From an uncultured Peptostreptococcaceae bacterium (GTDB lineage: Bacteria; Bacillota; Clostridia; Peptostreptococcales; Anaerovoracaceae), in assembly GCA_905235115.1 (NCBI GenBank), contig CAJOKT010000001.1:1-64000 (forward strand): a stretch of 64,000 nucleotides of DNA, in the 5' to 3' direction. A model generated the notes under the pieces. That model was given only the letters and a program-made list of their open reading frames with translations. It did not search any database and was not told the origin of the DNA. Position numbers and translations under genes: made by a program. How positions within the stretch are numbered: the stretch's first letter is position 1; every line of letters begins with the position of its first letter. Below, piece after piece: positions 1 through 42,721 of the stretch.

Positions 1-95
1 AGCTGTGTAGATTACTACTTATTGGGTTGAACCGCCGTATGCCGAACGGCACGTACGGTGGTGTGAGAGGGGCTACAAGTTAGCCCCTACTCGAT
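1..95 (+). mobile_element. Group II intron, 3' end only (domains V and VI)
   Basis: Positions 31-62 fold as a typical domain V: a 9-bp lower stem (31-39 with 54-62), a 2-nt bulge (CG, 52-53), a 4-bp upper stem and a 4-nt GAAC loop. Positions 66-90 form a domain VI hairpin (GGGGCTA paired with TAGCCCC), with A89 as the likely branch point, and the CTACTCGAT ending is characteristic of bacterial group II introns. The catalytic triad reads CGC. The reverse transcriptase and the rest of the intron lie upstream of the window. The exact 3' splice point (about 95) is inferred. Confidence 0.8.
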
Positions 96-38502: not shown

Positions 38503-38531
38503 CTGAAAAGGATGAAACATGGTGTTATAAT
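38503..38531 (+). promoter_or_regulatory. Promoter of the Tad-like operon
   Basis: CTGAAA (38503-38508), 17 nt, TATAAT (38526-38531). The -10 is strong, the -35 weak. Confidence 0.5.
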
Positions 38532-38559
38532 GCTATCATCTTAAAGAAGGATGAGGGGA

Positions 38560-38607: not shown

Positions 38608-39225
38608 TTGAGAAGAAAGATAGCGGGCATCATCATGATCCTGCTGAGCATCGGAGGCCTGGGTTTCTGGGAACTGTGGGGAAGAGAAAACCTGAGTTAC
38701 AGGACCATACTGGTGTTCAAAGAGCCTCATGAAGCCTATACCGTTGTCACGGAGGACATGCTTCAGGAGATAAGGGTGGAAAGAGCCACATCTAAGGCTC
38801 TTAGGCCCGGGGACAGGGAGCGGATCGTGGGGCTTGAGACGAGGCAGTACGTGCCCGGCCAGCAGGAACTTAATATGGATTATTTCAGGGTTACGGTCTT
38901 CAGGACCGGGGTCAAGGCGGACAGCTACGTCTTAAAGGTGCCTGACCTTTGGATAGTAAGCTGTCCGGAATCCATCAGAAGGGGCGACATGGCCCTTTTT
39001 TACTTGGGAGAAGAACTTTTGTGTGAGGCAAGGGTAATTCACGTCAAGGACAGTTTCGGTCAGGAGATCACATATTCCGGGCTTGAAAGGTACTATCCGT
39101 CAGGGAGAATGAACCTGATTGAGGTCATGACAGGAGCTGAAAACATAAGAAAGCTGAGCGGCCTGGCGGAAAAAGGAAACAGATTCACTATTATTTATGC
39201 GGAGGAAGAATATGAGCGGAAATAA
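38608..39225 (+). CDS. SAF-domain protein, CpaB/RcpC-like, of a Tad-like system
   Basis: 205 residues from TTG at 38608, preceded by GGGAGGGGG at 8 nt. One membrane helix (about residues 6-22), then a SAF-like segment (AYTVVTEDMLQEIRVERA). CpaB/RcpC proteins of Tad pili have this layout; in Gram-negative cells they work at the secretin, which this organism lacks. The end overlaps the ATPase start by 14 nt. Similarity is moderate; position first in a Tad-type operon is the main support. Confidence 0.65.
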   Translation: MRRKIAGIIMILLSIGGLGFWELWGRENLSYRTILVFKEPHEAYTVVTEDMLQEIRVERATSKALRPGDRERIVGLETRQYVPGQQELNMDYFRVTVFRTGVKADSYVLKVPDLWIVSCPESIRRGDMALFYLGEELLCEARVIHVKDSFGQEITYSGLERYYPSGRMNLIEVMTGAENIRKLSGLAEKGNRFTIIYAEEEYERK

Positions 39226-40564
39226 CGAGTATACGGAAGTCATGTATGAAGAGCAGGATAAAGGTTTCGGGACCCTTCTCAGAGACGTTCTGAAATGCCT
39301 GGAGGAGGAGTGGAAAAGCACCGGCGAACAGGACAGAACAGAGAGGCTTGAGATGGAGAAGAAAGCCATAATGGGCTATCCTGAGGAGGCTGATAAGGTC
39401 AGGGACAGAATAAGAGAGATCATAGAGGAAAATGATTTTGAAAAGAGCTATCCGCCCTGGTACAGATCTGCGGAGGACGCGGTGTTCAACGAGCTTTTCG
39501 GTCTTGCAGGAATAGCTCCCTGGGCCTATGACGAGACGGAGGAATACATAAGATCTTCTTCCGCCAAGCTGATCGGAGATAAACTGTACTGCCTCATCGA
39601 CGGAAAGTCGGTGCTCCAGCCACAGAGGATAGGCAGAAAGAGGCGGGAGCAGCTTAAGAGAGCCCTTCTGATGGCCACGCCCAATGAGAGACTGGAGAAC
39701 GGCTTCCACGAGGTTTACCTGTATAACGGAATAAGGGTCACCATTTTTTCCGGACACAGGACCAAGGAAGGGCAGGACATAATGGTCTTCAGAAAGTATG
39801 TGCTGGAAAACATGAAATTCGAGGATCTGGCAGAGCTTGGGACCATTCCACCTGGAAGCGGGGAACTTTTCAGCCTTCTGGTGAAGGCAGGGGTAAACGT
39901 TATCTTTGCCGGACCGGTGAGATCAGGCAAGACCACCTTTCTCAGGGTCTGGCAGAGTTACGAGGATCGTGACCTGGAAGGACTGGCCATTGCAACGGAT
40001 CCGGAGACTGACTGGACGAAGATAATGGGAGACGCGCCAATGATGCAGATCGTGGCTGACGGCGAGGAACTGGAGAACATCACGAAGCCTATACTTCGCG
40101 GAGACAACGACTACGTGCTTCTCGAGGAAATGAGAGACGCCGTAGCATTCAATATCGCTCTGGAAATTACATCTCTGGGGACCAGAAGGAGCAAAGCCAC
40201 CGTACACACCATGTCGGCAGATGCTCTGCCATATATGATGGCTGAAAAGATCCGTCACCGATATGGAGGTGAGACCAGAGACATAATAAGAAAGATCGTG
40301 GAGAATTTCGATCTGGTATTTGAATTCCGCCAGATGGATGATAACCGTTCCGTGAAGAAGCTTACAGCCATAACTCAGTACTACATAGATAAGGAAACGG
40401 GAAAGCCCGCGTCTCTGAAAATGATGAAGTACGATTTTGCCGGCTCCAGGTGGATATGGAACAGCAATCTGTGCTGCAAGATGAAGGAGATACTTAGGAC
40501 TCATCCCGATGAAGCCAGGAGGATAGTGGAGATATTGAAGGATCTGGAGGCTTCATCCAGATGA
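39212..40564 (+). CDS. TadA/CpaF-like secretion ATPase
   Basis: 450 residues. VirB11/TadA-type ATPase that should power pilus or pseudopilus assembly. Walker A GPVRSGKTT at residues 234-242, Asp-rich DYVLLEEMRDA as Walker B and LGTRRSKATVHT as the His/Arg box, in the usual order. ATG at 39212 has GGAGGAAG just upstream; an earlier in-frame ATG at 39197 overlaps that site. The N-terminal 110 residues are charged and poorly conserved. Overlaps tadB by 4 nt. Confidence 0.87.
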   Translation: MSGNNEYTEVMYEEQDKGFGTLLRDVLKCLEEEWKSTGEQDRTERLEMEKKAIMGYPEEADKVRDRIREIIEENDFEKSYPPWYRSAEDAVFNELFGLAGIAPWAYDETEEYIRSSSAKLIGDKLYCLIDGKSVLQPQRIGRKRREQLKRALLMATPNERLENGFHEVYLYNGIRVTIFSGHRTKEGQDIMVFRKYVLENMKFEDLAELGTIPPGSGELFSLLVKAGVNVIFAGPVRSGKTTFLRVWQSYEDRDLEGLAIATDPETDWTKIMGDAPMMQIVADGEELENITKPILRGDNDYVLLEEMRDAVAFNIALEITSLGTRRSKATVHTMSADALPYMMAEKIRHRYGGETRDIIRKIVENFDLVFEFRQMDDNRSVKKLTAITQYYIDKETGKPASLKMMKYDFAGSRWIWNSNLCCKMKEILRTHPDEARRIVEILKDLEASSR

Positions 40565-41499
40565 TGGCGGTATTCATGATCCTGGTGCTTCTTTTCGGGA
40601 TCTTTGCCGCCACTTATGACTACATGAAGGATATTTATGCGTATGCGGAACAGATATTAAGGAGAGGCCTGAGATCATTAAGAGAGAACGAACTGAACGA
40701 CAGGGGAGAAATATTTGAAAATGTCAGAAGTCTGATGTGGATCACCCTGGGAATGGGCACCGATAAAGCTGTCATGCTGTTTTTCGGAATCTCAGTATTA
40801 TCGGGTCTTACGGCTCTGTTGACTCTTGGGCTAAGGCTGCCTGTGACGCTCAGGACGGTCTCTGTGGTGCTGTCGTCATTCATGCCGTATCTTCTTCTCA
40901 GAATCCGTTTGGAAAAGATCAGAGTGAGAAGTTCATATGAAGGAGAGGTACTGCTGTCAGAACTTACGGAAAACTACAAGATCCACTATTACAACATGCG
41001 TGAGGCAGTGGAAAAGACAGCCGGAAGCATACAGGATGCGCCTGATTCAAAGAGGATCCTCACGGATCTGGCAAGAGGGCTGGAAAGAGCAGGATCAGAG
41101 AAGACAGTAATGAGACTTCTCCGGGAGTTCGGGATGTCCATTAACACTTCCTGGTCGAATACACTCAGCAACCTGATGTATTTCGCAATAATAAAAGGGG
41201 TCCGGGTGGAAGAGGCAATGGAGGATCTTGAGGATACGATCATAAAGGCCAGAGAAGTTGAAGAATATTCCAGAAGACAGCTGAACGAGCCCAGACTTAT
41301 AGTGAGGTATCTCATACCGATCTGTTACCTTCTTACAGCCCTGGGAGGAGTGAGGTTTTTCGGCCTTGAGCCGGGAAAACTATGGCATTATCAGTTTCAG
41401 ACGGAGGAAGGAGCGACATGGTTCACCATCTCCTTAATACTTTACATAATAAGTTATATGGGAAACTTATATTTTTCGAGAAACAAGCTGGACTTGTAG
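40561..41499 (+). CDS. TadB-like inner membrane protein (T2SSF domain)
   Basis: 312 residues. Hydrophobic helices at about 3-20, 75-100, 105-120, 245-265 and 285-302, with a cytoplasmic T2SSF-like domain in the middle (SELTENYKIHYYNMREAVE, then RAGSEKTVMRLLREFG). Layout fits TadB. The ATG overlaps the TadA stop (ATGATGG, two possible starts). It overlaps the next gene by 82 nt in another frame, an unusually long overlap. Confidence 0.8.
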   Translation: MMAVFMILVLLFGIFAATYDYMKDIYAYAEQILRRGLRSLRENELNDRGEIFENVRSLMWITLGMGTDKAVMLFFGISVLSGLTALLTLGLRLPVTLRTVSVVLSSFMPYLLLRIRLEKIRVRSSYEGEVLLSELTENYKIHYYNMREAVEKTAGSIQDAPDSKRILTDLARGLERAGSEKTVMRLLREFGMSINTSWSNTLSNLMYFAIIKGVRVEEAMEDLEDTIIKAREVEEYSRRQLNEPRLIVRYLIPICYLLTALGGVRFFGLEPGKLWHYQFQTEEGATWFTISLILYIISYMGNLYFSRNKLDL

Positions 41500-41963
41500 A
41501 GGCACCGGAGAAGGATCTGTATCATGCAGCCATTCTTTTAAAGAATCTGTGCATAGTAAGAAAGACACATCCTGTATCTCTGGACTACATGCTGGAAGAG
41601 ATGAGTCTTGGTCCCGGCTCTCTTAAACATGTATTTCAGAAGACTCTTTCATTGTACCGGGCTCAGGACAGCGACATGGCATTCAGGTATTTCGCGGATA
41701 GGCTCGGCACCAGACACGGAAGGAACTTTGCCGCTTTCATGTCCAAAATGGACAAGATCGATCCCGGGGAACTTGTGCCTCAGATCGATGTATTCATCGG
41801 AGTAATAAGGGAAGTCAGGGCTACGGAAGCCATGAAGGCGGCGGACAGAAGGGCTGCCCTATGCACGTTTCTTGCCGCAGCAGCGTGTTTTGCGGTCCTG
41901 ATCAACTTTCTTGTGGTGGTAGTGTTTCTGGATACGATGGAAAGCCTCCGGTTCTTATACTGA
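41418..41963 (+). CDS. TadC-like membrane protein, short
   Basis: 181 residues from ATG at 41418, with AAGGAG just upstream. A helical cytoplasmic part is followed by one strong hydrophobic C-terminal segment (about residues 150-178). TadC proteins are normally about 280-300 residues with three helices, so this is a reduced version. The first 82 nt lie inside the tadB-like gene in a different frame. Role inferred from order. Confidence 0.6.
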   Translation: MVHHLLNTLHNKLYGKLIFFEKQAGLVEAPEKDLYHAAILLKNLCIVRKTHPVSLDYMLEEMSLGPGSLKHVFQKTLSLYRAQDSDMAFRYFADRLGTRHGRNFAAFMSKMDKIDPGELVPQIDVFIGVIREVRATEAMKAADRRAALCTFLAAAACFAVLINFLVVVVFLDTMESLRFLY

Positions 41964-41996
41964 GGAGTCGGAAGCTCAAAAGGGGGATTTAGGAAT

Positions 41997-42179
41997 ATGA
42001 AAAACATAATAATAATCATCGGTACCATAATTCTCGGGACGGTGATAGTCAGCCAGTTCATACTGGGGCCTGACAATTCGCTGCTTTCCGCGGCGGAATC
42101 TGTGGTATCCAACGGTACAATGCAGATAGAGGAGACCTTCAAGGGGTCCATCCAGCAGCAACAGGAGGGTACAGACTGA
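41997..42179 (+). CDS. Tiny membrane peptide 1 of the Tad-like operon (60 aa)
   Basis: 60 residues. Starts MKNIIIIIGTIILG with a hydrophobic N-terminal segment (2-22), then FILGPDNSLLSAAESVV and a Gln-rich tail. No prepilin leader (short basic stretch plus G/E) is present. It shares the MKxxIIxxGT start with the 36-aa peptide and GPDxSL with the 47-aa peptide, so the three look like relatives. GGGGGATTTAGGAAT is upstream. Likely leaderless pilin or pseudopilin of the system. Confidence 0.65.
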   Translation: MKNIIIIIGTIILGTVIVSQFILGPDNSLLSAAESVVSNGTMQIEETFKGSIQQQQEGTD

Positions 42180-42322
42180 TGAAACAGCTGTTGATCACGG
42201 TCGGGCTCCTGTTCCTTGGAATAGTGGTGTTTGATATGATGATGAACGGTCCTGACAGCCTCTTTGAGGTGTCCCGGGAGGCGGTGAACGCGGCAAAGGA
42301 GGGCTATTCATGCATGAACTGA
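42179..42322 (+). CDS. Tiny membrane peptide 2 of the Tad-like operon (47 aa)
   Basis: 47 residues. Start ATG overlaps the stop of peptide 1 (TGATG). N-terminus MKQLLITVGLLFLGIVVFD is hydrophobic, followed by MMMNGPDSLFEVSREAVNA. GPDxSL-type motif and length match peptide 1. GCAACAGGAGGG gives the ribosome site within peptide 1. Unknown role; likely a second structural peptide. Confidence 0.6.
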   Translation: MKQLLITVGLLFLGIVVFDMMMNGPDSLFEVSREAVNAAKEGYSCMN

Positions 42323-42678
42323 TCACATCTGTGGCGTCAGTTATAATACTGTCTCTATTTGTTTTGCAGTTCGCTTTCAGCGAGAATCTTTATCTGGAGC
42401 TTTCAGCCTGTGAGAAGGTCATAAATGAGTATGAAACGGCAGGAGATCATGGCCCTGATGACCTTATGAAGCTTAAGTCTGATCTCGACAGAATACCCAA
42501 TGTCAGAGCCGTGATCCGTGAGGACAGGGTGGAACTTACCATAGAAAACATCGTTGTCCCGGTCTGGAACAGGGGGAGCAACGAAATAAGACTCACAAAG
42601 GAACTGGATCATGAAGAATCTGATCATAACACTGGGGACGGTGCTTCTCATGAGCCTTCTTCTGAAGGCGCAGACTGA
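42310..42678 (+). CDS. Small membrane-anchored protein of the Tad-like operon (122 aa)
   Basis: 122 residues. One N-terminal hydrophobic segment (about 3-25), then a helical domain (LSACEKVINEYETAG) and a short beta region, ending with an acidic, disordered tail. Similar in shape to TadE/TadF minor pilins but not recognised by sequence. It starts inside peptide 2 (13-nt overlap) with AAAGGAGGGC upstream. Confidence 0.6.
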   Translation: MHELITSVASVIILSLFVLQFAFSENLYLELSACEKVINEYETAGDHGPDDLMKLKSDLDRIPNVRAVIREDRVELTIENIVVPVWNRGSNEIRLTKELDHEESDHNTGDGASHEPSSEGAD

Positions 42679-42721
42679 GGTCAATTCGGCCTTGATCCTT
42701 GCCATCACAGGGGGATCATAG
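42611..42721 (+). CDS. Tiny membrane peptide 3 of the Tad-like operon (36 aa)
   Basis: 36 residues, in another frame within the end of the 122-aa gene. Reads MKNLIITLGTVLLMSLLLKAQTEVN..., with hydrophobic residues 3-18. AAGGA sits about 8 nt before the ATG. The MKNLIITLGT start closely copies that of peptide 1 (MKNIIIIIGT). Only this resemblance and position support it. Confidence 0.45.
   Translation: MKNLIITLGTVLLMSLLLKAQTEVNSALILAITGGS

Follow-up and report, generated by a model that had tools for sequence, protein, structure and literature searches.

A conserved Tad-like operon with leaderless small subunits in an uncultured Peptostreptococcaceae bacterium

Prepilins are defined by a leader that is removed by prepilin peptidase (PMC10191384); class III leaders are described as hydrophilic, 6-51 residues long and ending in Gly (PMC6916266), and the mature Caulobacter pilin is given as 45 residues (PMC11067988). 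The nearest earlier report found is that of Imam et al. (2011), in which tad-like loci of C. kluyveri, C. cellulolyticum, C. bolteae, C. sp. L2-50 and D. hafniense are reported to lack a prepilin motif (PMC3244431). The operon considered here lies at positions 38608-42721 on the + strand of a window of 64,000 nucleotides (positions 1 to 64,000 of contig CAJOKT010000001.1, assembly GCA_905235115.1) from an uncultured Peptostreptococcaceae bacterium of the GTDB family Anaerovoracaceae, and runs from a SAF protein gene through tadA, tadB and a short tadC to four small genes, sp1-sp4, several of the genes overlapping. The loci of Imam et al. resemble the operon and its relatives in that they contain homologs of tadA, tadC, tadZ and rcpC, show no prepilin signal motif and lie far from other tad genes; they differ in that they are said to contain tadV, and the available text makes no mention of leaderless subunits or of a link to conjugation, the comparison being by description only (PMC3244431).

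With the Tad/type IVc (Flp) pilus, represented by the Cpa system of Caulobacter and by a canonical cluster in the same genome, the operon and its relatives have in common the TadA ATPase, two candidate platform proteins, a SAF/RcpC-like protein, enough space for a TadZ-like gene in 33 of the 55 loci of relatives, and small headless subunits (sp1, 46-71 amino acids (aa) across loci). Unlike that pilus, the leaderless operon has no leader, no Glu5/Tyr6 and no adjacent TadV, and its TadA forms a separate lineage (support 100/100). With odds somewhat better than even (about 0.55), we favour a reading in which the genes of sp1-sp4 specify proteins already in mature form, and TadA, TadB and TadC build them into a thin filament at the surface or a pseudopilus, prepilin peptidase playing no part; the most economical account of the module would be a machine derived from Tad whose subunits need no trimming.

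The four subunit genes follow one another on the + strand: sp1 (41997..42179, 60 aa), the likely major subunit; sp2 (42179..42322, 47 aa); sp3 (42310..42678, 122 aa); and sp4 (42611..42721, 36 aa), a short form that overlaps sp3. They were compared across 58 distinct loci, which remained from 62 (46 relatives, 15 further loci and the window) once 4 duplicates had been removed. In 195 of the 196 measurable subunits (212 examined; median of 3 residues before the core), no more than 4 residues precede the hydrophobic core, whose start is unmeasurable in 11/55 sp3 and 5/50 sp4, as in 11/43 of the plasmid subunits treated below; all 14 canonical Flp pilins from related genomes have 12-29 residues ahead of it, five of which (MEMVQ) belong to the mature protein. 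An alternative in-frame upstream start is absent in 40/55 rows for sp1, 40/55 for sp2, 42/55 for sp3 and 43/53 for sp4, counts that still include a few misassigned rows dropped from the later residue, core and profile counts (sp1 of L092, sp2 of L035 and L049 and sp4 of L009 and L094, where the match was to the open reading frame, ORF, of a different subunit, and sp4 of L042, with a weak non-MK start). By upstream starts and core positions, a class III signal peptide is absent from sp1-sp4, and the core positions bear out the preliminary description of this DNA, which had seen no prepilin leader on the small ORFs. Position 2 is Lys or Arg in 206/212 subunits (sp1 54/54, sp2 53/53, sp3 50/55 with His in the other five, sp4 49/50). 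The start MKxxIIxxGT, earlier ascribed to three of the ORFs, is exact in sp1 and sp4 but loose in sp2 (MKQLLITVGL).

After unique assignment, sp1, sp2 and sp3 were each present in 55 of the 58 loci and sp4 in 51, and the order sp1-sp2-sp3-sp4 was kept in 50; the three loci without any subunit have just 323, 1663 and 1170 nucleotides (nt) available 3' of TadA. The small ORFs near TadA are thus conserved beyond what chance would give. Across five loci of the window genus, the proportion of nonsynonymous differences (pN) of sp1 is 0.03-0.12, the lowest of the five genes compared, at a proportion of synonymous differences (pS) of 0.51-0.79; pN of TadA is 0.11-0.26. The genes sp2, sp3 and sp4 evolve faster than sp1, and pN is below pS in every pair for all four subunits, with pS near saturation. 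Because sp1-sp3 follow TadC in 55/58 loci and sp1 is the most constrained, the window operon is, as judged from sequence, a conserved machine and not a decayed Tad locus. Decay with chance loss of the pilin leaders would suit a window copy that has no TadZ and in which TadC and sp4 are shortened, but the pN/pS relation holds in all pairs and the module is present in several families and a second class, so that this explanation is scarcely credible.

Profile comparison makes sp1 and sp2 paralogs (98.8%), while the N-terminal stretch alone is common to sp3 and sp4 (93.3%), to sp1 and sp4 (89.8%) and, weakly, to sp1 and sp3 (63.7%); the earlier view of the small ORFs as paralogs therefore stands for sp1 and sp2 but not for sp3 and sp4, which share just that stretch with each other and with sp1. 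Across loci, sp3 has 80-182 aa, and sp4 has 112-201 aa in 34/50 loci and 29-65 aa in 16/50. Structure predictions with AlphaFold2 covered the window sp3, with a helix at residues 2-44 followed by a helix and three strands (mean predicted local distance difference test score, pLDDT, 85.5), and the long sp4 of locus L023, with a helix at residues 2-46 and a head similar to that of sp3 (pLDDT 96.1). The predicted architecture of sp3 and long sp4 resembles the pilin lollipop. It also bears on the suggestion that the peptides are a signalling set, i.e., pheromone-like peptides with no role in assembly, in favour of which nothing was found beyond their small size: the lengths of sp3 and long sp4 with their predicted folded heads, the strong purifying selection on sp1 and the fixed order after TadC all argue against it, and we regard it as very improbable. 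Like the TadE/TadF/TadG pseudopilins (TadE, PF07811), long sp4 has a helix followed by an ADEAAATAAL-like stretch, but the sp subunits have no leader and no significant profile match (Tad (PF13400) in 1/23 members, E 0.67, and DUF4320 (PF14208) in 1/39 sp3 members, E 0.18, both weak).

In the TadA tree, 14 canonical sequences are separated by a 100/100 branch from 28 of the leaderless type (18 from chromosomes or elements and 10 from plasmids), which points to a leaderless-operon TadA lineage distinct from canonical TadA; within the 28, the plasmid sequences fall into more than one group, and three of them are long branches of unsure placement. With a profile cut-off of 1e-40, this ATPase was found in 104/393 genomes of an order sample (101 of the window's family, 3 of another family), in 9/391 of a class sample (4 of the window's family, 5 of one genus, g187) and in 4/398 of a phylum sample (the own genome and three distant ones), the three samples overlapping. 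The culturable species Eubacterium pyruvativorans and Aminicella lysinilytica are among the carriers of the operon. The three distant loci contain, in order, genes for SAF, TadZ-like, TadA, TadB and a TadC of ~295 aa, one small peptide, sp3 and sp4, in which sp3 and sp4 were recognized by profile (1e-9 or better) and the small peptide by position only. In one of these genomes, G893, the leaderless operon comes directly after a canonical Tad operon whose TadE and TadG have leaders.

There is no TadZ, TadV or Flp gene inside the window operon, as had been noted before, and an ordinary Tad system is present elsewhere in the genome. Its contig C2 (L005) has a second TadA (T2SSE, 1.1e-48), TadZ-, TadB- and TadC-like ORFs assigned by position, and a Flp1-like pilin with a leader (MKGLFSKRG|MEMVQ); one match to an A24 prepilin peptidase lies on contig C3 (C3:78334). 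The preliminary description had held that a Flp pilin and a peptidase elsewhere, completing an ordinary Tad system, would speak against unprocessed subunits; both were found, yet with a second Tad cluster whose TadA is of a different lineage from that of the window operon. The canonical clusters of the window genus also offer what is, on alignment of starts, a precedent for leader loss. The TadE-like gene right after flp (L005:8781-8936; L104-L108) opens with MK(I/M)(V/A)E in 6/6 loci, which places Glu at residue 5; in other genera (the 7 loci where both genes could be recognized), the same gene has a start further upstream and a Gly-ended leader, with Glu at +5. The correspondence of the two Glu residues implies that the short forms start at mature residue +1; short and long forms are related (97.6% in profile comparison), and a second TadE-like gene, ~1.4 kb further on, retains a Gly-ended leader in the same 6 loci of the genus.

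Firmicutes conjugative type IV secretion (VirD4, VirB4, TrbL, MobL) is the other system to which the module is linked. In the clostridial genus g187 the leaderless operon lies within a conjugation region with a MobL relaxase, a VirD4-type coupling protein and TrbL and, on the far side of genes for surface proteins, a VirB4-like ATPase and an M23 peptidase (relaxase side from three genomes, VirB4 side from two). The window copy and the other loci differ in this: with the g187 queries (tblastn, 1e-6), none of VirD4, VirB4 and relaxase was found in the 64-kb window, nor was any conjugation gene found by tblastn near the other 57 loci, with flanks of mostly 8 kb. A relative of the g187 TadA occurs on 28 plasmid records, 10 of which were inspected, all from Bacillales. 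They show a recurring order of SAF, TadZ-/ParA-like, TadA, two platform-sized ORFs, small ORFs, sp3, sp4 and a large ORF (SAF matched by tblastn in 9/10; first platform ORF split in one plasmid), and the large ORF is similar to a g187 surface protein in 8/10. A coupling-protein gene is annotated beside the module on 9/10, and a VirB4-like gene is present on both plasmids read over nearly their full length. Profiles from the chromosomal set detected sp3 in 9/10 and sp4 in 10/10 plasmids (E<1e-3). Genes for near-identical small subunits stand in tandem on two Planococcus plasmids, three on one and two on the other, which would fit a high-copy structural subunit. The sp4 profile also matches genes annotated as M23 metallopeptidases on two Planococcus plasmids (L164:16286-17212, L167:15039-15938), which suggests an sp4-like helix fused to a putative wall-cutting enzyme.

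On the chromosomes, genes for surface proteins are found shortly after the operon in L007, L009 and L051 (SpaA with thioester and/or TQ) and in L048, L124 and L129 (SLH); a surface-type gene directly follows the operon in a minority of the chromosomal set (domains confirmed in L007, L009, L051 and L048), and by eye most other loci have housekeeping-type genes there. These neighbours and the conjugation genes around the module in g187 and on plasmids favour a different role, in which sp1-sp4 would remain in the membrane as a short pseudopilus or piston, or as an accessory ring for surface-protein export or DNA transfer, and would not extend into a filament. Good anchoring is to be expected of single-pass proteins that are not cleaved and have a conserved Lys2. 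A polymer of many copies is suggested, on the other hand, by the near invariance of sp1, by the presence of its paralog sp2 and by the near-identical tandem copies on two plasmids, and we hold membrane retention to be unlikely, though deserving of some weight.

Several observations weigh against assembly of ready-made subunits into a filament. No acidic residue stands at position 5 in any of the 212 subunits (0/212), the Glu5 of Tad/type IV filaments thus being missing, and Lys2 would be unpaired inside the filament core. Profile comparison of sp1-sp4 with canonical Flp and TadE-like proteins gave about 3% or less, a test of homology that is weak because the control, Flp against TadE, reaches 35% only; no solved pilin was among the matches listed in fold searches with the predicted structures. 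MOB-suite classed 25 of the 28 plasmid records as non-mobilizable and 3 as mobilizable. The sp1 and sp2 profiles miss the small peptides of the plasmids, which are equated with them by position only; the core starts within 4 residues in 12/32 measurable plasmid subunits and is preceded by 5-27 residues in 20/32, and by eye one Paenibacillus plasmid has leader-like subunit starts. Finally, an A24 peptidase is present in 76/77 ATPase-carrying genomes, so processing in trans is possible, and sp1-sp4 might be prepilins with an unusual cut site trimmed by that enzyme, e.g., after Gly9, which lies within the sp1 core in most rows. Such a cut would, however, take away part of the helix, the median of 3 residues before the core compares with the hydrophilic leader of 6-51 residues given for class III (PMC6916266), and 0/77 genomes have, by coordinates, an A24 gene on the contig of the ATPase at a distance of 20 kb or less (nearest 22 kb, contig ends limiting the search); trimming of this kind seems improbable to us.

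If the subunits are indeed made in mature form, sp1-sp4 would be inserted in the membrane with no peptidase step, Met1-Lys2 probably retaining the N-terminus in the cytoplasm, and TadA, TadB and TadC would assemble them into a thin surface filament or pseudopilus. In such a structure sp1 would be the bulk subunit, sp2 its variant and sp3 and sp4 minor subunits, and the SAF protein might guide the filament outward; its use could be adhesion or, where the module is on conjugative elements, mating contact. The idea raised in the preliminary description, that the peptides are structural subunits which a surface or secretion machine uses unprocessed, agrees with their conservation, with the missing space for a leader, with the architecture predicted for them and with a neighbourhood that stays constant, while polymerisation and surface location remain a proposal. 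More tentatively, and at somewhat less than even odds, a type IV filament lineage across Bacillota may have dropped prepilin processing, its mature-form subunits starting with Met1-Lys2 where others have the cut site and polymerising without Glu5; the module would travel with conjugative plasmids as a mating filament, and Anaerovoracaceae and other families would have retained it on their chromosomes for adhesion.

All eight ORFs of the preliminary description were found at their positions. The first four, also on the + strand, begin with the SAF/RcpC-like membrane protein (38608..39225, 205 aa, TTG start), which has no Pfam match to the SAF domain at E<=1; PF08666 is above cut-off in 2/4 relatives at the same position, just below in 1/4 and absent in 1/4, and a profile seeded with the window protein detected a counterpart in 55/58 loci. 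The TadA/CpaF-like ATPase (39212..40564, 450 aa, Walker A GPVRSGKT) matches T2SSE (PF00437, 1.4e-10) and has CpaF as its best match among solved structures (5e-7). The TadB-like platform protein (40561..41499, 312 aa) and the short TadC-like platform protein (41418..41963, 181 aa, overlapping tadB) gave, with their relatives, nothing above the Pfam cut-off; TadB is named from position, synteny and the annotation of its Planococcus plasmid counterpart (type II secretion system F family), TadC from position and synteny only. No ORF for TadZ lies between SAF and TadA in the window; among the 55 loci with a SAF match this gap is TadZ-sized in 33, <100 nt in 19 and intermediate in 3, and Pfam gave sub-threshold or no matches for two relatives' proteins at the TadZ position. 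The term 'reduced', applied earlier to the operon, is right in part because, compared with the missing TadZ, the 181-aa TadC and the 36-aa sp4 of the window, 33/55 relatives have room for TadZ, TadC has 291-299 aa in distant relatives and sp4 is long in 34/50. By eye, the operon of L128 (G748, genus g187) looks internally shortened, an sp3-like part directly following TadA, without TadB, TadC, sp1 and sp2.

A promoter-like element, CTGAAA-N17-TATWATGNTA, lies on the + strand at 38503..38535, 72 nt upstream of the start of SAF. In the 1.97-Mb own genome there are two exact sites, this one and one where the canonical Tad cluster begins (G000:C2:35358), the latter inside the longest TadZ frame and 5' of the likely TadZ start; the reversed pattern, used as a control, has 0 sites in this genome. 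In six genomes of the genus, 4/11 exact sites precede a Tad operon; in other members of the genus the element also stands before genes of a ~280-aa protein family and before other genes. With 2 mismatches allowed, one site in the window is unremarkable (reached in 37/100 shuffles). A looser pattern precedes the operon in 13/58 loci against 0.05 expected from shuffles. Similar proteins of 134-137 aa (L005:4915-5316, L010:4702-5112), sigma-region-4-like by eye and without a Pfam match, precede the own canonical Tad cluster and the leaderless operon of L010, L012 and L014. The operon has a tRNA-Arg upstream and, by eye, a pantothenate kinase-like gene downstream, and an Rfam group II intron match (45.7 bits) lies at the left end of the window (30-95).

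A conserved machine with leaderless subunits would, if true, mean that prepilin processing is dispensable, and which features assembly needs (free N-terminus, Glu5, leader charge) would become testable. For conjugation in Gram-positive bacteria, adhesins and not pili are usually discussed; the copies on plasmids and in conjugation regions suggest that a pilus-like part may be involved there as well. Detection models that require a pilin signal motif are likely to miss such systems.

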